DNA from: a virus
Strand: one strand, 5' to 3'
Virus record (IMG/VR): IMGVR_UViG_3300020183_000046
Location: 1 to 64,000 of that record
DNA: 64,000 nt
The notes beneath the pieces were generated by a model, which saw only the letters and a program-made list of their open reading frames with translations, did not search any database and had not been told where the DNA came from. Positions 50,878 to 62,160 of this stretch are shown here, piece by piece; within the stretch, counting starts at the first letter, position 1, and every line of letters starts with the position of its first letter. The translations under genes and the position numbers were made by a program.

Positions 50878-53800
50878 TTAAACTTGATTTACGTTGAACC
50901 TAATACGTACATAATAAGTTGTGTTTGGATCTAAAGATACATCCTGTGGTAGAATGTATTGGGTCTTGTTAGCGGTGTTACCAAGTGATTGGTGAATGAT
51001 TGTTTGGAATTGGTTTGTTGGTGAAAACTGCCAATCACTAGATGTGTGTGCATATCCAGCTTTAACTTGTGCTGGGTCTACATTAATTGTTGGATTAAAC
51101 GCGGGAACAATTGTTTGGATAACTGGTTGATCTACGAATGGAGTTGTGAAGTTTTGAGCAGAAGTGTAAGAACTTTCAAGACCATTTTGGTCTCTGAATT
51201 TTACTTGAACACTATAAACAGTATCAAATGACAGAATTCCAGGTGGGACTGTAAATGTTGTTAGATTTCCAGTGTCACCTGCTGCAAAAATGCTTGCTGT
51301 ATCATAGATGATTGTGTTATCTCCAACTCTTTTGATTCTCCAGAAAGTTGAATAGTGAGTCGATCCAGTATATTGAGAAACAAATGCTGATGTAGTAATT
51401 GTAGGAGTTCTGGAGAATGTTTTCAGCGTATCTGGATCTGTTGTTACAGTCACAGTAGCTGGAGCACTTACAAACTCAGATTCATTTACAGTCAACGTTG
51501 CAACGCTAGAAGTTACAGTAGTTGCAGCAAGGTTTGTTAGCACACATCTATATTGTACGTTTGGAGTTGTTGGATATACAGTTGGGGCAGTTGTATAACT
51601 GGAAGAGTTCGCACCATTAATATTACTCCAGTTAGCTCCAGAGTTACTTGAGATTTGCCACTGATATGAAATTACATCACTAGTAATCGTTGCAATTACA
51701 GTAAAGGTTGCAGTAAATCCTTCAATAACAGCAACGCTTTGTGGTTGTGTTGTTATTGTAATTACTCTGAGAACTGTAAGTAATGCAAATGTTGATGTTT
51801 GTGATCCAGCAGAACCAGTGAGAGTTACAACGCAACGATAACGATCATTATTATCTTGAGTGTATACTAACTGAGGAGTCGTATATGATGAGTTGGTCGC
51901 ACCAGAAATATTAGAGTAGTTAACACCACCATCATCAGATCTTTGCCACTGATAAGATGGAGCTCCACTACTTGCGCTAACAGTTACTGAGAATGTAACA
52001 GTACTATTTTCATTTGCTGTTTGATTATTTGGATTTGCAGTAATTGTGAAAGTTCTTAGTACAGTTAATGTGACACTATTTGTGTATGCTGGCGCAGCTG
52101 CACCAGTAGCATCAATTTTACATCTGTAGCGATCTCCATTATCACTGGCATATGTAAGAGTTCCTGTTGTATATGATGCTGAAGTAGCTCCAGAGATATC
52201 TCCCCAGTTGCTTCCGCCATCATCTGATTTCTGCCACTGATATGTTACTGGTGGTTCGTGCTGGGACTGCAGAGATACTGAGTATGGATCTATGGAGTTA
52301 CCACTACCTGCAGAAGGAGTTGTGAAATCTTCAACGTCAAAGGAGGATGAAGCTGCATTAGCTCCAATCTGACCCATCGTTACATCACCAAGACATGTAA
52401 ATGTTGCCGTGGCATTTTCATTTGCAGTTTTATTTGTTGGTTGTTGAATAACTACTGGAGTTACTGTTTCTACTTGTAATGTTGCACTTCCCGAGTTGAC
52501 TGGAGTAGCTCCAGTACATGAAAGAACGCAACGATATCTTTGCTCATCATTTGATGCAGTTAATGTTGGAGTTGTATAAGTTGCTGTTGTTGCACCACTT
52601 CCTCCAACTACGTTAGACCACGATGCTCCACCATTAATTGAGAACTGCCACTGGTAGGTAATATCTCCAGGATCACTGTCGGAGGTTGTAGCTACAACGC
52701 TAAACTGTACTGTACCACCAACTGCTCCAGTTACATTTTGAGGTTGAGTTGTAACTGTAATTGTTCGAGTCAATAGCAGTTGAGCTGCACTTGACGTTAC
52801 TGGAGATGCTCCAGTTGCTGAGCAAATGCATCTATAGTAATGTCCAAAATCAGCATCGTATGTTGTTGCTCCTGTTGTATAAGACGCAGACGTTGCTCCA
52901 GATACTGATGTGTATGAGATACCATCGTTAGATTTTTCCCACTGATAAGATATTGATGCAGCATCAAGTGTAGATGCGGTTACGAAGAATGTGGCTGCAG
53001 CAGGAGCCACTGGAGTTTGGTTAGTTGGTTGAGTGCCAATAGTAACTACTCTGAATACTGTTAGTGTTGCTGAGTTTGTCGTTGTTGTTGCAACTGCAGT
53101 CGCACTGTTAAGAACACAACGATATTGATTGCCATTAAAAGCAAAATCATCATCTACGGTAAGAGTTCCAGTTGTTTCTCCACTATGTCCAGCAAGAGAA
53201 GAAATATTTGCCCAAGTAGAACCACCGTTTGTTGAACGCTGCCACTGAAAAGTAACGGTTGATCCATCATCTGCAGTACCAGCAGCAGTAAATGTTGCGT
53301 TAATACCAGCTCCCGCTTCTACTGAAGTATTTGATGGTTGAGTTGTGACAGTAATTGCTACCCCAGTGCCAGTAATTGTGAAGTTATAATTTCTAGACTG
53401 ACCAGTTGTAGTTTCAGTAACTGTAATATTATATGTAAGATTTTGATATGATGCAGTTACTGTACCAGAAAGAACACCAGTGGTTCCATTAAAGGTAAGA
53501 CCAGTTCCAGAAATACTAGTGCCACTTAAAGTGTAACCTTGAATTGTAATTGGTTCTGAAGCCCAAGTTGTAAGTGAACTAAGTCCAAGATTGAGATTGA
53601 TTGATGCTCCATTCGCAAAAGGAGTTCCAGTGAGAGAACCAGATGCTGCCGCCCAAGTTACTATGATATCAACATATGGATAAACGGATCCTCTATTAGT
53701 TGTACCTAAGCTTGAGAGATTAAAATCTACACCTGGATCTACTGGAATATTTTTAATAGCAGTGCTTGTACCTCCAGTCTCCTGGGCATCGGTTTGGGTA

Positions 53801-55950
53801 TACAGTTGAGTTCCACTAAATTCTGGTCCATCAGATGCTTCATGAGTTCCAGTTACAATAGCAAGATAATGACCAGATCCTCCAGCATTTGCCTGTGTTG
53901 ATAATCCAGAAGATGCCATAGTAACAGTAATTGTATAGTTCCCTGCATTTTGTGCAGAGATTGTCAACCACTGTGTACCTTGCTGTTGAATATTAACTCC
54001 ACCAACTGTTGTTCCTGATATAGCTCTTAACTGTACTTTCTTACCGACGTTTCCAATAAAGTATGCAGAATCTGCTGGATTGAAAGAGATAATTAAATTA
54101 CTTGATCCATTACTTACAGTAAATGGATTTGTTGGTAAAACTTTTTCTTCAATACTATTGATTGGATATTGATCTGTCCCACATCCATTTCCTAAGAAAT
54201 CAGCACCACTTCCCCTAACAAAAGATTTTGATAACTGTGGTAAGTATGGTGTTGTTCTTGTGTACGAATTTGCAGCGACCCAAGAAGCTAAAATACCAGT
54301 GACGATTGGGCAGGAGAAAGAAGTTCCGCTGATGATATCATAGTTAGATGTTGAGGTATAGACTGTGTTACTAGTCCAATCATACTTTGGAGAAACCAAT
54401 CTTATACCTGGAGCAGTAGTGGTTACACCACCACCATAGTTTGAAAAATATGCCCAACGGTCATTATATTCTGTTGCACCAACAGAAATTTTATTTTGAT
54501 TTGCATCAACTGAATTAAATACTGGATCACTATATCCAGCAGTTCTAGTACCTGCAATATACTTTCCTTGGATTGGACCAGCAAAATTGCCAGAGGTATC
54601 TACAAATCCATTACCAGCAGATCTAGCTAAAATAATATTGTAAGTATCAGTTACAGTCTTTTCAATTTCATCAAGCAATTCTACCTCAACTCCAGCATCA
54701 GTTCCAGCATCGTTGAGTTCAATATAAGGATATGATCCACTAGGAATTGTTGGACCAAATGATGCGTTGATAATAGCTGGACGATTGTTTCCTTTGTAGT
54801 TTGCATCTAAAGGATCGTTGTGATCAATTACTGCCTGATATGCCGATAAGATTTGAGAGTATGAAGAAGACAATCCGCTATTAAATGCCTTCAGTGAATA
54901 TATCCTTGCCTTTCTAGAAACACCTGCTGTTCTACCAGATGACATGATTGCACAGAAAGTTCCGTGACCATTATCATCTTCGTTATTAGTACCGTATGCT
55001 CCAGCATAGTGTGAGAGTTGATATACTCTATAGTTTTGTTGTTCTGCTGTACCGTTTAAGTTAGTTGCAAAATCTGGATCATAAAGTTCTGGGTGTAGTG
55101 CTGCGTTTGTTCCTGTTGGTCTGCTTGCTCCACGAACACCAGAATCAATAACATAGATGTCTACACCATCCCCAGTTTCAGTTGCACTAAATTCTCTATT
55201 GAGATATGAACGATCTGACTTTGTAATTCTATCCAGGTGCCAGTAATCATGAATATTAATTGTTCCATATAAATTTGGTGCTGCTTGATATCTGCCCATG
55301 CCAGAATGAACAGTACAATAGTAGAATAAAATGGATGGAGTCGTCGCTCCAACAACTATTCTAGTGTATGAACCAACAGTACCAGAAGTTCCAGATACAG
55401 ATACTCCAGATGTTAATTGGGTTCCACCACCATGAGTTCCATCTGGAGTTTCGGAAAATCTAAATGGGTGTCCAGCATTTGATGAGTGTGCAGTATCAAA
55501 TGTATATGTGCCACCCTGTAGGAATCCACTGAGGTTTAAGTATCTTATGTATATTCCACCAGATGTTTGAGAGAATGTATAAAAATTACTTCCACCAATA
55601 TTAGCAACTCTTACATATATTGTACCAGTGCCAGAAGTTGTAATATTTCTTGTTCCGTAAGTTGCATCCGCTGCTGCTTCATTTAAAGTTTCATCTTCAT
55701 GGGCAACAACATTCGATTCAACTGAATCTGCTGGATCACAAGTAACTTCCATATCCCATGTTGCCTGATGCCCTAATGAGCGAATATCATACAAGGCAGT
55801 TTCTTCGTTTTCCTCTGGTACATCAAAGGTAACGATACTAAAGCTTCTAAATTTCTCTACAAAAACTAAGTATCCAAATTGATCTAGGATAGAGTCCTTT
55901 GCCGCTTCTAGATCAGAATTATTGGTTACCTTGACTACTACCCTCTTCAT
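50878..55950 (-). CDS. Giant virion-type protein: cupredoxin-like motif, subtilase and Ig-like repeats
   Basis: This 1690-residue protein has these parts in order. Residues 1-75 resemble a protease-inhibitor/propeptide fold. About 125-225 look like a cupredoxin: GHPFRFSET and FYYCTVHSGMG give a His...CxxxHxxxM set. About 255-580 are a subtilisin-type serine protease with YVIDSGVR (Asp about 268), NGHGTFCA (His about 329), ARSAGNG and SGTSFSCPIVTG (Ser about 544). About 760-860 are a cadherin/He_PIG-like domain. Six Ig-like repeats of the YQWQ...YRC type follow to about 1490, with fibronectin-like domains at the end. It lies directly before gp13 and has its own late promoter, so it is probably a tail or head decoration. 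Confidence 0.85.
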   Translation of the reverse strand: MKRVVVKVTNNSDLEAAKDSILDQFGYLVFVEKFRSFSIVTFDVPEENEETALYDIRSLGHQATWDMEVTCDPADSVESNVVAHEDETLNEAAADATYGTRNITTSGTGTIYVRVANIGGSNFYTFSQTSGGIYIRYLNLSGFLQGGTYTFDTAHSSNAGHPFRFSETPDGTHGGGTQLTSGVSVSGTSGTVGSYTRIVVGATTPSILFYYCTVHSGMGRYQAAPNLYGTINIHDYWHLDRITKSDRSYLNREFSATETGDGVDIYVIDSGVRGASRPTGTNAALHPELYDPDFATNLNGTAEQQNYRVYQLSHYAGAYGTNNEDDNGHGTFCAIMSSGRTAGVSRKARIYSLKAFNSGLSSSYSQILSAYQAVIDHNDPLDANYKGNNRPAIINASFGPTIPSGSYPYIELNDAGTDAGVEVELLDEIEKTVTDTYNIILARSAGNGFVDTSGNFAGPIQGKYIAGTRTAGYSDPVFNSVDANQNKISVGATEYNDRWAYFSNYGGGVTTTAPGIRLVSPKYDWTSNTVYTSTSNYDIISGTSFSCPIVTGILASWVAANSYTRTTPYLPQLSKSFVRGSGADFLGNGCGTDQYPINSIEEKVLPTNPFTVSNGSSNLIISFNPADSAYFIGNVGKKVQLRAISGTTVGGVNIQQQGTQWLTISAQNAGNYTITVTMASSGLSTQANAGGSGHYLAIVTGTHEASDGPEFSGTQLYTQTDAQETGGTSTAIKNIPVDPGVDFNLSSLGTTNRGSVYPYVDIIVTWAAASGSLTGTPFANGASINLNLGLSSLTTWASEPITIQGYTLSGTSISGTGLTFNGTTGVLSGTVTASYQNLTYNITVTETTTGQSRNYNFTITGTGVAITVTTQPSNTSVEAGAGINATFTAAGTADDGSTVTFQWQRSTNGGSTWANISSLAGHSGETTGTLTVDDDFAFNGNQYRCVLNSATAVATTTTNSATLTVFRVVTIGTQPTNQTPVAPAAATFFVTASTLDAASISYQWEKSNDGISYTSVSGATSASYTTGATTYDADFGHYYRCICSATGASPVTSSAAQLLLTRTITVTTQPQNVTGAVGGTVQFSVVATTSDSDPGDITYQWQFSINGGASWSNVVGGSGATTATYTTPTLTASNDEQRYRCVLSCTGATPVNSGSATLQVETVTPVVIQQPTNKTANENATATFTCLGDVTMGQIGANAASSSFDVEDFTTPSAGSGNSIDPYSVSLQSQHEPPVTYQWQKSDDGGSNWGDISGATSASYTTGTLTYASDNGDRYRCKIDATGAAAPAYTNSVTLTVLRTFTITANPNNQTANENSTVTFSVTVSASSGAPSYQWQRSDDGGVNYSNISGATNSSYTTPQLVYTQDNNDRYRCVVTLTGSAGSQTSTFALLTVLRVITITTQPQSVAVIEGFTATFTVIATITSDVISYQWQISSNSGANWSNINGANSSSYTTAPTVYPTTPNVQYRCVLTNLAATTVTSSVATLTVNESEFVSAPATVTVTTDPDTLKTFSRTPTITTSAFVSQYTGSTHYSTFWRIKRVGDNTIIYDTASIFAAGDTGNLTTFTVPPGILSFDTVYSVQVKFRDQNGLESSYTSAQNFTTPFVDQPVIQTIVPAFNPTINVDPAQVKAGYAHTSSDWQFSPTNQFQTIIHQSLGNTANKTQYILPQDVSLDPNTTYYVRIRFNVNQV

Positions 55951-56502: not shown

Positions 56503-56510
56503 TATTTATT
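56503..56510 (-). promoter_or_regulatory. Late-promoter-like AATAAATA
   Basis: 22 bases upstream of the 56481 start, overlapping the end of the oxygenase-like gene. Confidence 0.5.
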
Positions 56511-57216
56511 GTAAAAATGCATTAAATGTTAGACGGTTAGTACTCCACTCTCCTTGTTTAAAATATGGAGAATGCCAAAGTCTTCCCTCATACAACAATA
56601 CGGAATTATATTCATGAAGTTCAACATGATATCTTTCCCATTCTTTTGATTTATATTTTGATGGATCAAAATTAACAAAAGCATTAATATGATTTAGTGC
56701 TCTAGATGATCTGTAATTTTTATCAGAAGAAACAAATTCTTCACACAATTCAGTATTCCTAAAGAAAGCGGTTCCAGAATCTGTACCAACTAATTCTTCT
56801 GACTTATTCAAGCACAATACAGCAGCATAGTGAGTATCATCCGTGTGGGGTGATAGGCTACACATTCTACATTTTTCATTTACTTCATACATTTGAAAAG
56901 TAAAATCCGACATAGCTGGAATACTCATTACAGATCTACCAGCTTCAAAGTAAGTATGACAAGCAAATTTGAATGGCTCATTAAATTGTTTTGAGGTATG
57001 TCCAATTCTATGGACATATCCAGGTAAGTTTGTATATTCACCATTTAGCGTAGAAACATAATCACATGATAATGCATATGCTCTAACTGAATCTGGATTC
57101 TTGAAAAAATTTTTTATTTTGATTATACGATTTTTACTCTTACCAATATGTGTTTGCTCAACATCCCAATCTCTAGGATGATGTACTTCTAATATATCTG
57201 GATTAATTACTTTCAT
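56506..57216 (-). CDS. DUF6445-type 2OG-Fe(II) oxygenase-like protein
   Basis: From the ATG at 57216 this is 236 residues. LSPHTDDTHYAAVLCLN supplies HxD (about H124 and D126). SVLLYEGRLWHSPYF supplies the distal histidine (about H215) and NRLTFNAFL the arginine (about R228). This resembles proteins grouped as DUF6445. The substrate is unknown. It directly follows the U32-like/methyltransferase fusion, which it overlaps by 14 bases, so the two may act on the same target. Confidence 0.75.
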   Translation of the reverse strand: MKVINPDILEVHHPRDWDVEQTHIGKSKNRIIKIKNFFKNPDSVRAYALSCDYVSTLNGEYTNLPGYVHRIGHTSKQFNEPFKFACHTYFEAGRSVMSIPAMSDFTFQMYEVNEKCRMCSLSPHTDDTHYAAVLCLNKSEELVGTDSGTAFFRNTELCEEFVSSDKNYRSSRALNHINAFVNFDPSKYKSKEWERYHVELHEYNSVLLYEGRLWHSPYFKQGEWSTNRLTFNAFLQ

Positions 57217-58963
57217 TTCCAAAATACTCATCAACTACTTTAGTTTTCTCTAAGACCAAAACATGAATTCCATTCCACCAGTGGGTAGGATTTTCTATTA
57301 TACCACTTAGAAGTTTTCTTTCAAAATAACAAGTTAAATTATTTTCCTTTACGAATTGTACAGTTCCTTCAACAACACCATCAAAATTAGCATCATCCAC
57401 AACCAAAATAAATTTATCATCTAAAAATGGTAAAATATGATTGAGGTTATTCATCTGCTCAATCATATCATGATTTGCATCATAGAAAACTACATTTGGT
57501 TTATATCCATCAAAGTCATCTTTAGTTAGTTCTTGAGCACTAGCTTTTATGAAAACGGAATTACCATTTTCATATTTTTCCCAGTGCTGAACAAGCATAT
57601 CATATGGATTTGATATTTCTGCCCATGAAACATGGGGCATCATGGGTTTACATTCTGGTTCAGAAAAATCGTCAACTCCAAAACATTTTGTAGCATTATT
57701 CATTCCTGCAGCAAAGAATGTACTTCCAATAAAAGTTCCAATCTCTAAGTATACTGAATCTTTATGCGAACATAAACTATTTAAAAAATGTCTAACTCTA
57801 TCAGAGGTCAATCCACGTACAATATAGTTTTCTGGGTTATAGTTTGAAGATCTTGTCAATCCATCATTAATTGCTTTTAATGTTCTCTTTGTAAATTCAT
57901 CAACTTCAGTTGGTCTTTCATCTCGTTTGAGATGAGATTCAACAACAGCTTCACAGTAATTACAATCCCAGCAATTAAACTGGCAAGTTTTAATTTTTTC
58001 TCTCCAAATATCAATTGGTTTTTTCTCCATGGATAAATCTTCCATGTAATTATTAAAGGTTGGAAAAAGTAAATCATCTTCTTTTGCCCACCTTTCAACA
58101 ATATCCATAGATTCTTTTAACTTCATGGTGTTTTCTCTACCATGCATTTTAAATACATCAATACCTAAATCTAAAAATTCATTCCAGTCCTCTCTCCATG
58201 GTGGGAGATTTGCAGATTTTAATGCATGTGAATTATCTTGAATATCCCAAAGAGCACATGAATTTGTACTAATTGGATCCATGAAATATTGAGGAATATT
58301 TTCAGTTCTAGTGTTATTAAAATGGTAGTGTTCATCCATCATGGAACATCCTCCCCAGCAACCCTCATTTGCCAAAAGAGAAAGTTCTACTGGTTTACCA
58401 ATAGATGCACAGTATTCCTTAGATTTTTTAATCTTAAGTAAGGAATCTCTATCTCTCATTAAATCCCTATCGAGATTAATATAATGAAACCCAGCATTAG
58501 CTAGTGATACAATCTCATTTGCTTTAGTTACATTTCTCAGGATTGTATTTTTAATTTTAAGTTCTGGAAATTCTTTTTGTATAATGCCAGAAGCAACCCA
58601 ACTGGTATGTGGAATAGTTGCTATTCTAACTCCATTATCATATAACTGTTTGAAGTTGTGTACAAATAGATCTAAATTTTCTTGGTCTGGTCTAACATAG
58701 ATATTATTGAATGTTGCGGATAATGGAATTCCTGCTGCATCTGCAATAGATTTTGCATTATAAAAAAGTTGCACAATATCTCCAGCAAAAACATCTCCCA
58801 TAGCATCATTAACAAATGGGGGCATTCTTGATGTAAAATAAAGATCTACAATATAATCTTTATATTTTTTTAACCAAGGAACAAATACTGTCTCTGCAAA
58901 TTTAGAATCAATCTTCGGATTTATTGGAAGACTGAAGACGAATTTTTTCTTTTGGGATGTCAT
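57203..58963 (-). CDS. U32-peptidase-like Fe-S barrel fused to a SAM methyltransferase
   Basis: This 586-residue protein has two halves. Residues about 8-345 look like a TIM barrel of the peptidase U32 family: LSLLANEGCWGGCSMMDEHY with C202 and C206, C236 further on, and GIDVFKMHGRENT near 270, which is the KxxGR element of that family. A CQFNCWDCNYC cluster follows at 327-337. Residues about 385-575 are a class I methyltransferase with VYLEIGTFIGSTFFAAG as the SAM-binding loop and FYDANHDM and ILVVDDANFDG as later motifs. U32 relatives bind 4Fe-4S and hydroxylate nucleic acids or quinones. A hydroxylate-then-methylate function is inference. Confidence 0.72.
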   Translation of the reverse strand: MTSQKKKFVFSLPINPKIDSKFAETVFVPWLKKYKDYIVDLYFTSRMPPFVNDAMGDVFAGDIVQLFYNAKSIADAAGIPLSATFNNIYVRPDQENLDLFVHNFKQLYDNGVRIATIPHTSWVASGIIQKEFPELKIKNTILRNVTKANEIVSLANAGFHYINLDRDLMRDRDSLLKIKKSKEYCASIGKPVELSLLANEGCWGGCSMMDEHYHFNNTRTENIPQYFMDPISTNSCALWDIQDNSHALKSANLPPWREDWNEFLDLGIDVFKMHGRENTMKLKESMDIVERWAKEDDLLFPTFNNYMEDLSMEKKPIDIWREKIKTCQFNCWDCNYCEAVVESHLKRDERPTEVDEFTKRTLKAINDGLTRSSNYNPENYIVRGLTSDRVRHFLNSLCSHKDSVYLEIGTFIGSTFFAAGMNNATKCFGVDDFSEPECKPMMPHVSWAEISNPYDMLVQHWEKYENGNSVFIKASAQELTKDDFDGYKPNVVFYDANHDMIEQMNNLNHILPFLDDKFILVVDDANFDGVVEGTVQFVKENNLTCYFERKLLSGIIENPTHWWNGIHVLVLEKTKVVDEYFGNESN

Positions 58964-59684
58964 ACTTCACTTCAGGTAATGTTGGTTTTTGGTCAGTCAA
59001 TTCAGACCCATTAATTTGTGGAGGTCTAAAGTCTTCAAGTTTTCCATTCAATATAGATTGCATAGCTGGTTCCATTTGTTTTTGCATATTTCCAATACCA
59101 GCACGAAGGAGAGATGAATGATGAACGGCTCCAGATAAAACTTGAATTTGATCTTCTGGTTGCATGTTCATAATTGAATCCATGTTTCCACTTCCAATAT
59201 TCCCAAAGGAAATGATATCAACGGCAGCTTGTTTTGCCATTCTACTGATCCAATATTTACGATCCTCTTCTTCATTATTTTTCAAATAGTATTCTTTACC
59301 AAGATTGGGATCGATATCTTTCTCTAATTCTTCTACGAAGTGCTCAACTTCTTTCTTGATAAGTCTATATTTCTGTTCCCAGATAGATTTATCATAGTGA
59401 GCTTTTTCAAGTTCGATCGCAATCATTTCTTTCTCAAGATCGTCTTGCTCTAATTTTAAAGCTCTTTCTAATTGTTTAATCTGAACAGTATTTTTCTTCA
59501 GACGATATTCAAGCTCTACCCTACTATTATCTCTCATCTGGAGTTCAAGAAAAGCTTGTTGAACTCTTTTGAATGGAGTTATTTGGGATCCACAAACAAA
59601 ATTTTGATTTTGGTATCTTGTTTGCCCACCCTCTAATTTGTAAGATAATTCAATCCAAGATTTTTCAGAATCCGAAAGTTCCAT
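58908..59684 (-). CDS. Coiled-coil tail-module hypothetical protein, 258 residues
   Basis: Residues about 45-130 are a long coiled coil (RLKKNTVQIKQLERALKLEQ). A Met- and Gly-containing helical region follows (NIGSGNMDSIMNMQPEDQIQ). The family appears to be specific to cyanophage tail modules, and I know no function. It overlaps both neighbours: 20 bases upstream and 56 downstream. Confidence 0.78.
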   Translation of the reverse strand: MELSDSEKSWIELSYKLEGGQTRYQNQNFVCGSQITPFKRVQQAFLELQMRDNSRVELEYRLKKNTVQIKQLERALKLEQDDLEKEMIAIELEKAHYDKSIWEQKYRLIKKEVEHFVEELEKDIDPNLGKEYYLKNNEEEDRKYWISRMAKQAAVDIISFGNIGSGNMDSIMNMQPEDQIQVLSGAVHHSSLLRAGIGNMQKQMEPAMQSILNGKLEDFRPPQINGSELTDQKPTLPEVKYDIPKEKIRLQSSNKSED

Positions 59685-60597
59685 AAGCTAGTTCTCCATC
59701 AATTCGCTTTCCATTAGAATCGATTCTTCCCAGCATTTCTGCCTGCTTTATTGGCATACCTACATTCAAGTAATCTTCATACAAGATGTTGATATCCCAC
59801 ATATTATCACAGTTTTTAAACTGAGAACGAATCGCATGATATTTGCCCAACAAAGAGGCATAATCTATAAGATATTTATCATGATGATCAAGCACTCTTT
59901 TTACTAAAACTTCCTTTGCCATTCCTCTAGTCATGCAAAGAATATCTAAAAATGGAGTCTTTGCTTCTTCATTTTCTTTATATTTTCTTGCTTCTTCTAA
60001 CTGATAAATCCAAGATTCAGTTTCAACATCGCAGCAATTTTTAAAATTTTTAAATCGTAAATCAAATTCATGCTCAATAACTAAGATTGCTTGCTTTTTC
60101 ATGAAAGAAATTGCAAGTTGAATATTTTCTTTCGGTGTAATTTTCTTTACTTTTTCGAATTTGAGCTCTCCAGTATCAGTCATTACTTGCTCATATTCTT
60201 TGTAATGAGCTCTAGTTTCCCCCTGAAATCTTACTCCATGAGTAAATTCTTTTTCTGGAATCTCGACATATCTCCTAAAAGATGATTTGATTGTTTCAAA
60301 AACAATTTTATTCATCTTGATTGTAGAGACATTACAAAAATTATATAAAACAAAGTAAGTAGTTTCGTCGGCTTTAATGTCAGCCAACCTCAAAGCATCT
60401 TCATGGATCATCATGTAGATAAACCCTTCTTTGATCTTCTCTTTATCCTTAATAAATTTTCTTGTCTCTAATTCTAAAGGATGCTGTGGTTCATATTTTG
60501 GACGTAAAAAATCTTCCTCTTGAATTAAATCTTGAGGGATTCTTTCCTTCCAAGCAACATCAAATGATTTTTCTTCTATAAAATTACTTGTTTCCAT
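59665..60597 (-). CDS. Hypothetical protein in tail-fibre module, 310 residues
   Basis: This mostly helical protein (PLELETRKFIKDKEKIKEGF, KNIQ-type segments, RVLDHHDKYLIDYASLLGKY) has no catalytic motif that I can see. Its place between a fibre protein and coiled-coil proteins suggests a role in fibre assembly, but that is inference only. Confidence 0.75.
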   Translation of the reverse strand: METSNFIEEKSFDVAWKERIPQDLIQEEDFLRPKYEPQHPLELETRKFIKDKEKIKEGFIYMMIHEDALRLADIKADETTYFVLYNFCNVSTIKMNKIVFETIKSSFRRYVEIPEKEFTHGVRFQGETRAHYKEYEQVMTDTGELKFEKVKKITPKENIQLAISFMKKQAILVIEHEFDLRFKNFKNCCDVETESWIYQLEEARKYKENEEAKTPFLDILCMTRGMAKEVLVKRVLDHHDKYLIDYASLLGKYHAIRSQFKNCDNMWDINILYEDYLNVGMPIKQAEMLGRIDSNGKRIDGELAYGTFGF

Positions 60598-60730
60598 CTT
60601 TATTCTTAAGTTCTTCTATTTCTTTTTTTAGATTTTCTACTTCTAACTTAAGATATTTAAATTCTTCATATAGAACAAAATCTGGTCTATTGAAAAACAT
60701 ATTATTACTACTTCCAGTTTTTGATGACAT
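60584..60730 (-). CDS. Small coiled-coil ORF, 48 residues
   Basis: This ORF (MSSKTGSSNNMFFNRPDFVL, then EEFKYLKLEVENLKKEIEEL) starts with a TAATG junction after the fibre gene and overlaps the next start by 14 bases. That exact fit supports it as a gene. The function is unknown. Confidence 0.65.
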   Translation of the reverse strand: MSSKTGSSNNMFFNRPDFVLYEEFKYLKLEVENLKKEIEELKNKDGNK

Positions 60731-62160
60731 TACTGATACCTCCTACCAGTTACTGCAAATGCACCACTCACACATGCTCCAGAAGATTGCCCTTGGTGAC
60801 CTTTTGGCTCGGACTTAAATCCAAGAACAATATCAGAATCATTAGCATAAAAACGCTTCCACGTCCTATTGTTCTGATAGTTTCCTCCAGCATCTCCATA
60901 ATTTCCTAAGCAATATCCCCAGTCTTGTCCCTCTTCCATGTTTTCTTCTCCACTTGCAACATCTTTTTGGTTGAATTGTGATCCAATAGTAGTCGCAGTG
61001 AGATCATTAAATTTAATCCAAGGTAAAGTTACGTTTGCTCCAGCTCCATGATAGCAGTGACCCCATTTAGATGAAAGATTTTTTTTCCATCCATCATTAG
61101 TTCCCCAGCTAGTCAAGGTGTAACTAGTAACACTTTCACTACTAAATGTGACATAAACTGCATTTGAGTTATCTCCAAACAAATATCCTCTAGTTTCCCC
61201 TTCGCATCCAGTGGCATTACCATTAGTAAATCCACCAGCTAAACGAGTTGACATTTCAGTAATAAAGTTTAATCTTTGAATACTTGCTGGTCCACCACCA
61301 GCAGTATATCCTCTTTGAGTCACAAAACCAGAAACAGAACCTGGGTCGTCAGTACTATCCCAAGTATCCATGGAAGCACCGAGACTATCTGGAGTAGTGC
61401 TATAAGCGTCTCCGTGACCTGGACTGCCATTCGGACCAAATGTTCTATTCGTTCCGTTATGTAAGTTTATACTAGAAACAGATGCACCAGATCCACCGTA
61501 TGCGTTTTCTGTTCCAAATACATATCCATTAAAATCTCCAAAGTTTCCATCTACATACGATGCTGCTCTATCCAGCTGATCACCGCGAGAAATAGTAATA
61601 TCGGTTGCATGGAAAGTTTGATTTACAGTTCTCCATGGATTTGATCCACGGTATCCACCGATCAAAAATCCATGAGTAAAAATACTTCTATATCTAAAAC
61701 TTGATCCAACAGTAATATTATATAATGCCCCAGTAGAATCATACCACTGACCAGTTCCAGTATAGGGCAAATAATATGCACTAGATATTGTTGGATTTTG
61801 CCCTCCAGCAAGAGTAGTTGTTGATGGAGTGGATCTATACGTACCAAATTCATTTGAAAATGTTGTTAAACTCCCACCAGTATTCGGTCCTGTTGGTTGA
61901 GTTGCCCAATATGCTCCAGCACCAACACTTTCATTTGGCACAGCATTAGCCCAAAAAGCATTTTGTCCATCTGACATCAATACCGATCCAGCAGTTGCTG
62001 GAGATTGATTTGGGATTGCTGCAAATGGTTGACCGTTTTGAAGTAACTGACCCGTGAAGTTAATATTTCCAGTTACATCAACATTTTTTGGAATAGCTAC
62101 TGTGGTCCCACCGCTGGTTAAAGTATTGGCTTGTACAGTAGTGGTAGTTACCTGAGACAT
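60730..62160 (-). CDS. Tail-fibre-like protein, 476 residues
   Basis: Residues 1-80 are an attachment-like region (NVDVTGNINFTGQLLQNGQP, AGSVLMSDGQNAFWANAVPN). The remainder consists of glycine- and aromatic-rich blades such as GFLIGGYRGSNPWRTVNQTF, GYVFGTENAYGGSG and GYLFGDNSNAVYVTFSS. The regular G-Y-x-F-G pattern suggests a beta-propeller-like receptor-binding tip. Proteins like this recur in cyanophage tail modules. Confidence 0.8.
   Translation of the reverse strand: MSQVTTTTVQANTLTSGGTTVAIPKNVDVTGNINFTGQLLQNGQPFAAIPNQSPATAGSVLMSDGQNAFWANAVPNESVGAGAYWATQPTGPNTGGSLTTFSNEFGTYRSTPSTTTLAGGQNPTISSAYYLPYTGTGQWYDSTGALYNITVGSSFRYRSIFTHGFLIGGYRGSNPWRTVNQTFHATDITISRGDQLDRAASYVDGNFGDFNGYVFGTENAYGGSGASVSSINLHNGTNRTFGPNGSPGHGDAYSTTPDSLGASMDTWDSTDDPGSVSGFVTQRGYTAGGGPASIQRLNFITEMSTRLAGGFTNGNATGCEGETRGYLFGDNSNAVYVTFSSESVTSYTLTSWGTNDGWKKNLSSKWGHCYHGAGANVTLPWIKFNDLTATTIGSQFNQKDVASGEENMEEGQDWGYCLGNYGDAGGNYQNNRTWKRFYANDSDIVLGFKSEPKGHQGQSSGACVSGAFAVTGRRYQ

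Follow-up and report, generated by a model that had tools for sequence, protein, structure and literature searches.

The locus and its gene

The window analysed here is a stretch of 64,000 nucleotides (positions 1 to 64,000 of IMG/VR virus record IMGVR_UViG_3300020183_000046), a section of a 78,325-base virus record. Among genes for the phage neck, tail and fibre lies F1, a minus-strand gene whose product is predicted to join an N-terminal U32-like barrel to a C-terminal class I S-adenosylmethionine (SAM)-dependent methyltransferase (Table 1). F1 is a single unbroken frame of 586 codons with an ATG start, and the plus strand across the same interval has many stops and no open frame. It is confirmed as a real and conserved open reading frame. 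Nearly the whole protein matches phrog_1458 (E 1e-239), and phrog_36869 matches the first half (E 2e-72). Full-length F1 is present in 123 cyanophage records, and relatives are encoded at no fewer than 582 metagenomic viral loci. A plasmid search for relatives gave zero matches.

An initial annotation, made from the sequence alone, knew of no described phage system of this kind. The family is in fact already catalogued as phrog_1458 and, according to record annotations, as T4-GC 354 of the clusters of Sullivan et al. 2010, and a phage U32 protein of the RB69 type exists. What stands is that the function is unassigned: phrog_1458 and phrog_36869 are both catalogued without one, and T4-GC 354 is labelled hypothetical.

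A diverged U32-like barrel

The two-domain reading given in the initial annotation is supported by profile comparison and by the predicted structure. The AlphaFold2 model of F1, based on 45 family members, has a mean predicted local distance difference test score (pLDDT) of 86.8. Eight beta strands alternate with helices over residues 10-273 (strands at 10-13, 38-44, 81-84, 114-116, 136-138, 161-164, 193-198 and 270-273). The barrel-like order of strands and helices first noted in the N-terminal half is thus modelled as an eight-stranded triosephosphate isomerase (TIM) barrel. A helical segment carrying a second group of cysteines follows, and then the methyltransferase from about residue 381. 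The order of elements was identical when the barrel was modelled alone from 15 sequences (predicted TM-score 0.79).

In Foldseek searches of solved structures, the U32 protein Mk0906 (5d88) had the highest target-normalised TM-score (TMt) among the matches to the barrel, at 0.69 with a root-mean-square deviation (rmsd) of 4.8 Å for the full model and 0.68 with an rmsd of 4.7 for the barrel alone. It was the sole U32 structure returned. Methylenetetrahydrofolate reductase (MTHFR) chains had E-values slightly below that of 5d88, but their TMt was about 0.5 and their rmsd about 8 Å. When viral models were searched, the first hit that was clearly no orthologue was a 'Peptidase' of Escherichia phage OLB35, a T-even phage (TMt 0.73, 20% identity).

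Sequence comparison reached the U32 family by a longer route. Pfam Peptidase_U32 (PF01136) matched neither F1 nor the rest of its virus record, and direct searches of Pfam, NCBIfam and PDB sequences with the barrel returned nothing. The top PDB sequence-profile matches of the whole protein, a type III effector and YacP, were rejected as chance-level. Direct hhalign comparison of the barrel family with E. coli UbiU, UbiV, TrhP and RlhA was weak (E 0.007, probability 5). Because this was too weak on its own, the RB69-type phage U32 family (RB69ORF050c, phrog_5757) was used as a bridge. The RB69-type protein has 389 residues, and its member from a T-even Serratia phage matches PF01136 above the cut-off (1.8e-11). 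The alignment of the F1 barrel family with this family covers the whole barrel and spans 305 columns (E 3.2e-7, probability 93), and the RB69-type family aligns in turn with the four E. coli proteins (E 6e-7). Fold and this two-step profile chain support a relation of the predicted barrel to U32, and homology to the proven members is indirect.

Conservation was assessed in 45 diverse sequences, 41 fused and four barrel-only cellular ones. The KMHGRE element that the initial annotation had singled out (residues 272-277) lies at the end of barrel strand 8, at the U32 K-x-x-G-R place, where UbiU, TrhP and RlhA of E. coli have KIEGR. K272, G275 and R276 are identical in 45/45 sequences. The glutamate that TrhP has eight residues ahead of the first cysteine (E162) has no counterpart in F1, where position 194 is hydrophobic. 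The invariant N199-E200 pair of F1 is nearer the first cysteine.

Two predicted metal sites

Eight candidate ligands, C202, C206, H212, C236, C327, C331, C334 and C337, are invariant in all 45 sequences. So are N199-E200, E211, K272 and H274-G275-R276. This degree of invariance is far beyond chance. The only other mostly-cysteine column of the alignment is at position 45 (36 of the 45). The CWGGC motif reported in the initial annotation (residues 202-206) supplies the first two of these cysteines.

Because C202 and C206 follow strand 7 and K272-R276 follow strand 8, the first set is placed at the C-terminal barrel mouth, the part of a TIM barrel that holds the active site. Its CX3C and X5 to the histidine are constant. 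The gap from H212 to C236 is X22-27 in 44/45 sequences (23 residues in the window protein), and one sequence has X45 through an insertion. In the RB69-type protein, the aligned order is C-X10-C-X5-C-X23-C, so that the X5 and X23 spacings agree, and its second site, CX4CX3CX2C, corresponds to CX3CX2CX2C of F1. H212 stands where the RB69-type protein has a cysteine, which therefore suggests a 3Cys-1His cluster. Binding of an iron-sulfur (Fe-S) cluster by F1 is plausible, since all candidate ligands are invariant.

Described U32 proteins have one four-cysteine motif each (PMC6747719; PMC11574389). The motif is CX6CX15CX3/4C, with CX6CX16CX38C in UbiU and CXnCX12CX3C in UbiV (PMC6747719; PMC11574389), and UbiV thus also deviates from the common form (PMC6747719). 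The canonical motif was not found in the F1 family, which has CX3CX5HX22-27C and CX3CX2CX2C instead. F1 resembles UbiU/UbiV, RlhA and TrhP (PF01136) in its TIM barrel, in cysteine ligands after strand 7 and in K-x-x-G-R after strand 8. It differs from them in the absence of a Pfam match, in its CX3CX5HX~23C pattern, in the extra CX3CX2CX2C and in the fused methyltransferase. The second cysteine set, the histidine ligand and the fusion distinguish it from the described U32 oxidases. F1 is a diverged, U32-like protein and not a canonical U32 oxidase, because both the Pfam match and the published four-cysteine motif fail. The proposed U32 membership is therefore upheld for the fold, the indirect profile chain and K-x-x-G-R, but not for the PF01136 match or the CX6CX15CX3/4C motif.

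The methyltransferase half

The C-terminal half is a predicted class I SAM methyltransferase, as the initial annotation had proposed. Methyltransf_24 (PF13578) matches it from end to end with E 3.5e-5, although the score of 25.1 bits is 1.2 bits under the curated cut-off of 26.3. Of the two Pfam comparisons suggested at the outset, this one thus gave a match just short of the cut-off, and the one with PF01136 gave none. Foldseek matches of this half include MeT1, the sugar O-methyltransferase of Mycobacterium hassiacum, and many phage and viral methyltransferases.

G409 and G413 of the glycine motif, D431, D523-D524 and N526 are invariant in the 41 fused sequences. D495 is likewise invariant in 41/41, and one barrel-only row aligns another residue there. 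Acidic residues of class I methyltransferases bind the SAM ribose, and in enzymes of the TylF/COMT type they also bind a divalent metal. If acids such as D431, D495 and D523-D524 bind both the ribose and a metal, this would fit O-methylation.

Table 1. Positions of F1, its predicted parts and neighbouring genes in the window, and of U32-chorismate mutase gene pairs at other phage loci
Feature	Position	Strand	Remarks
F1, U32-like barrel-methyltransferase fusion gene	57203..58963	minus	586 aa; phrog_1458; T4-GC 354
N-terminal (beta/alpha)8 U32-like barrel, predicted	58064..58939	minus	residues ~9-300; AlphaFold2, Foldseek 5d88, hhalign
C202-W-G-G-C206, predicted first two ligands of cluster 1	58346..58360	minus	directly after strand 7
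H212, predicted third ligand of cluster 1	58328..58330	minus	aligned to Cys in RB69-type U32
C236, predicted fourth ligand of cluster 1	58256..58258	minus
KMHGRE	58133..58150	minus	residues 272-277; end of strand 8; U32 K-x-x-G-R place
C327-X3-C331-X2-C334-X2-C337, predicted second four-cysteine site	57953..57985	minus	CQFNCWDCNYC (327-337); outside the barrel
C-terminal class I SAM-dependent methyltransferase, predicted	57245..57823	minus	residues ~381-573; EIGTFIGST 407-415; acidic D431, D495, D523-D524
F5, DUF6445 gene, 2OG-Fe(II) oxygenase-like	56506..57234	minus	downstream, overlaps F1; PHROG name 'minor coat protein' doubtful
F2, co-inherited neighbour	58908..59684	minus	phrog_1409; T4-GC 353; overlaps F1 start
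F3, conserved neighbour	59665..60597	minus	phrog_1604; T4-GC 352
F0, tail-fibre-like protein	60730..62160	minus	phrog_1417; T4-GC 351, 'sericin 1 precursor-like'; co-inherited with F1
U32 and chorismate mutase pair, locus L176	3492-5002
U32 and chorismate mutase pair, locus L071	3494-5138
U32 and chorismate mutase pair, locus L177	3001-4391
U32 and chorismate mutase pair, locus L174	994-2727

Gene context and co-inheritance

F1 lies in a tail-fibre region and overlaps a gene resembling 2-oxoglutarate (2OG)-dependent oxygenases, as first described; the latter is the DUF6445 gene F5. Across 46 representative loci, the genes usually run in the order F0 (tail fibre), F3, F2 and F1. At least one gene of the 2OG-Fe(II) oxygenase superfamily (PF13640, PF13759, DUF6445) comes after F1 in most marine loci. 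Some loci have a flavin-dependent Trp halogenase (PF04820, E 1.2e-105) after or beside F1, and in another branch F10 and a DUF401 transporter gene are found downstream instead.

Co-inheritance is the strongest clue to the function of F1. Against a comparison base of 418 records with the T4-like cyanophage helicase, F1, F2 and F0 occur in 123 records each with an identical breakdown (77 Synechococcus, 38 Cyanophage, 8 Prochlorococcus), the three sets being matched by count and breakdown rather than record by record. In metagenomic contigs, F2 and F0 accompany F1 in 12/14, and in 12/12 where the contig extends upstream. Their absence from the other two contigs is uninformative because L117 starts just upstream of F1 and L135 about 3 kb upstream. 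In S-SM1, none of T4-GC 351-354 occurs within the 20-60 kb examined, and other fibre genes are present there. S-SCSM1, for which virion proteome data exist, has no F1 gene.

The place downstream of F1 varies between relatives. Arrays of one to several 2OG-Fe(II) oxygenase genes follow F1 (L032, L031, L025, L098, L121 and others), and their content changes from one relative to another, like that of a cassette site. Flavin-dependent Trp halogenases adjoin the tail-fibre module in several T4-like phages (L051, L050, L118), sometimes as two genes. A gene annotated as denV or 'DNA endonuclease V' directly follows F1 in P-SSM4 and Syn19 (L169 9710-10219; L171 10713-11210). This annotation may be wrong, because a 2OG-oxygenase-like gene holds the same place in P-RSM1 (L072 7722-8222, PF13640 E 2.6e-4). 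Elsewhere in the window, 50878-55950 on the minus strand encodes a tail-type protein of 1690 residues, which has immunoglobulin-like repeats and, at residues 248-561, a region resembling subtilisin-like proteases (phrog_3677).

Residence inside a structural gene block and inheritance with the fibre gene would also be expected of a virion structural protein that keeps an enzyme-like fold without activity. The predicted metal ligands and the acids of the SAM/metal site are strictly conserved, however, and a scaffold has no need of them, which makes this reading the most improbable of those weighed here. A further alternative is that protein side chains are not the target and that F1 instead tailors a sugar or a small molecule, such as a nucleotide sugar that is later put on the fibre or the host surface. 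The best methyltransferase fold matches include the mycobacterial MeT1, and sugar-modifying auxiliary metabolic genes are common in cyanophages (PMC9602691). The 46 representative loci, on the other hand, have no conserved glycosyltransferase or nucleotide-sugar genes beside F1, and we regard the sugar reading as unlikely.

Barrel-only relatives in bacteria

Relatives that consist of the barrel alone, 39-43% identical, occur in a few Campylobacterota and in one Cloacimonadota genome (3/397 and 1/125 of the genomes sampled). These phrog_36869-like proteins from metagenome-assembled genomes (MAGs) have the eight-ligand pattern of F1. They differ from it in lacking the methyltransferase and in being chromosomal, near secretion or modification genes. 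The contexts come from short MAG contigs and a small sample.

In two MAGs (L150 and L151), a type I secretion set lies directly downstream of the barrel gene and comprises genes for an outer-membrane efflux protein, an ABC transporter bearing a C39-like domain and HlyD. The barrel gene of L150 is itself preceded by the 3' end of a gene judged by eye to encode an RTX-like secreted protein, for which Pfam gave no confirmation. In genome G354 (L172, G354:C27), two tandem diverged barrel genes are located directly upstream of SapC (PF07277). These tandem genes encode about 540-550 residues, and their N-terminal halves resemble a second barrel. In genome G336 (L173 5806-10331), a barrel-only gene is clustered with two APH-like genes and with genes for HlyD, an M50 peptidase, SecA and a Trp halogenase (E 1.8e-92), and SelO lies alongside. 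This cluster is possibly an export-linked protein modification locus. In a Hydrogenimonas MAG (L152 1100-7062), type III CRISPR (Cas10/Csm) genes come immediately before the barrel-only gene and share its strand. In several of these bacterial contexts, the barrel is thus found together with further enzymes of oxidative tailoring or with large proteins that are exported or belong to the surface.

Phage U32 proteins and prephenate

The RB69-type U32 gene is present in 218 records. It lies in the arabinosyl-5-hydroxycytosine DNA-modification cluster and adjoins a gene for a thymidylate-synthase-like enzyme. A type II chorismate mutase (PF01817) is encoded one or two genes after it in four of the five phages scanned, namely those of Erwinia, Serratia, Shewanella and Providencia (E 4.9e-12 to 8.2e-8). 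A U32 gene with its own prephenate source beside a thymidylate-synthase-like enzyme strongly hints at prephenate use by phage U32 proteins, suggesting that phage-made prephenate is the oxygen source for 5-hydroxy-dC in RB69-type phages. According to a 2026 paper, 5-hydroxy-dCMP is synthesised by the enzyme of the thymidylate synthase family; the text of that paper mentions neither U32 nor prephenate (PMC13390438). F14, a small neighbouring gene, was weighed as a candidate chorismate mutase but discarded.

F1 could likewise supply phage DNA with a modified nucleotide, a role suggested for the RB69-type gene by its position. Its nearest PF01136-positive relatives are those in the arabinosyl-5-hydroxy-dC cluster (PMC13390438), with chorismate mutase in most of the phages scanned. 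The RB69-type protein nevertheless differs from F1 in having a cysteine in place of H212, in lacking a methyltransferase and in its DNA-modification setting next to chorismate mutase. F1 has no conserved nucleotide-metabolism genes beside it and no chorismate mutase in ten phage records, and a role in DNA modification appears very unlikely.

A possible role in RNA modification

Known U32 oxidases hydroxylate electron-rich rings (rRNA cytidine, tRNA uridine and a quinone precursor), and prephenate is needed in the RNA cases (PMC6599085; PMC11574389). In the ubiquinone and 5-methoxyuridine (mo5U) pathways, a methyltransferase then caps the new hydroxyl. The domain pairing of F1 resembles this order of hydroxylation and methylation.

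The initial annotation drew its comparison with 5-carboxymethoxyuridine (cmo5U) synthesis in tRNA. F1 as a tRNA wobble enzyme would join the activities of B. subtilis yrrM-yrrN-yrrO in one protein, with the barrel making 5-hydroxyuridine (ho5U34) like TrhP and the methyltransferase making mo5U34 like TrmR. The domain types match. In B. subtilis, two U32 genes and a COMT-like methyltransferase gene share an operon and act in that order (PMC6599085). TrhP1/TrhP2 and TrmR differ from F1 in being separate proteins with a tRNA substrate, and the similarity of F1 to them was compared via the E. coli homologues. Of the phage U32 relatives that have a pathway context, however, the closest belong to DNA and not to RNA modification, and the 64-kb window has zero tRNA genes. 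F1 is tied to tail-fibre genes and its bacterial relatives to protein-export loci. It also lacks the RNA-associated C-terminal domain of TrhP and RlhA, which counts against a tRNA substrate. The comparison with tRNA therefore holds for the domain types and not for the context, which points to the tail-fibre module. The tRNA reading is weakened because gene context and co-inheritance tie F1 to that module; tailoring of the tail fibre is the most likely of the two, and we consider a tRNA enzyme quite unlikely.

A proposed tailoring enzyme of the tail-fibre module

The fold (as a model), the invariant ligands, the fusion, the synteny and the co-inheritance are directly established for F1. From these we infer its cluster content, the hydroxylation, the order of the steps and the substrate. 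F1 may be a bifunctional tailoring enzyme of the tail-fibre module that hydroxylates and then O-methylates a fibre component; we offer this as a serious possibility that still falls somewhat short of probable. The barrel would hold one Fe-S cluster at its C-terminal mouth (C202, C206, H212, C236), and the second site (C327/331/334/337) could serve as an electron relay. If it works like UbiU/UbiV, RlhA and TrhP, F1 would need no O2 to hydroxylate its substrate and would probably take the oxygen from prephenate. The methyltransferase would then use SAM to cap the new hydroxyl as a methyl ether. The fibre module is the likeliest target because F1 travels with the fibre gene amid hydroxylating and halogenating enzymes. 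The likeliest substrate would be a residue or glycan of F0, or of its partners F2 and F3. The neighbouring 2OG-Fe(II) oxygenases may add more decoration to it, as may the flavin-dependent Trp halogenase in some phages.

Several points weigh against this proposal. Described U32 proteins include none known to act on protein, and the canonical four-cysteine motif and the glutamate essential in TrhP are not at the equivalent positions of F1. No chorismate mutase was found in the ten phage records with the fused F1, so that prephenate would need to be supplied by the host. Many of the 123 records are near-identical (S-RIM2) isolates, and the independent lineages are therefore far fewer. In S-ShM2, F1 lies about 6 kb away from F2. 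Trp and Tyr are only mildly raised in F0 (Trp 2.4% against a background of 1.9%), and because the increase in Trp is modest, an aromatic side chain as the target is a guess.

A more specific and more doubtful claim is that F1 is the first protein-acting oxidase of the U32 type. It would carry out O2-independent hydroxylation and O-methylation of a tail-fibre protein by means of a His-ligated and an auxiliary cluster. Its partners in a fibre-decoration island would be 2OG oxygenases and a halogenase, and its bacterial counterparts would lie beside secreted surface proteins.

Biological significance

U32 oxidases are a young enzyme class described for ubiquinone and RNA. If the proposal is true, the class would extend to a new type of substrate, and the abundance of 2OG oxygenases near cyanophage structural genes would be explained. 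The proposal can be tested directly, since it predicts that the virion proteins named above show mass shifts and that F1 has two Fe-S sites formed by the ligands listed. It would also suggest that, in very abundant marine viruses, chemical decoration of the fibre is a trait bearing on host range or stability.

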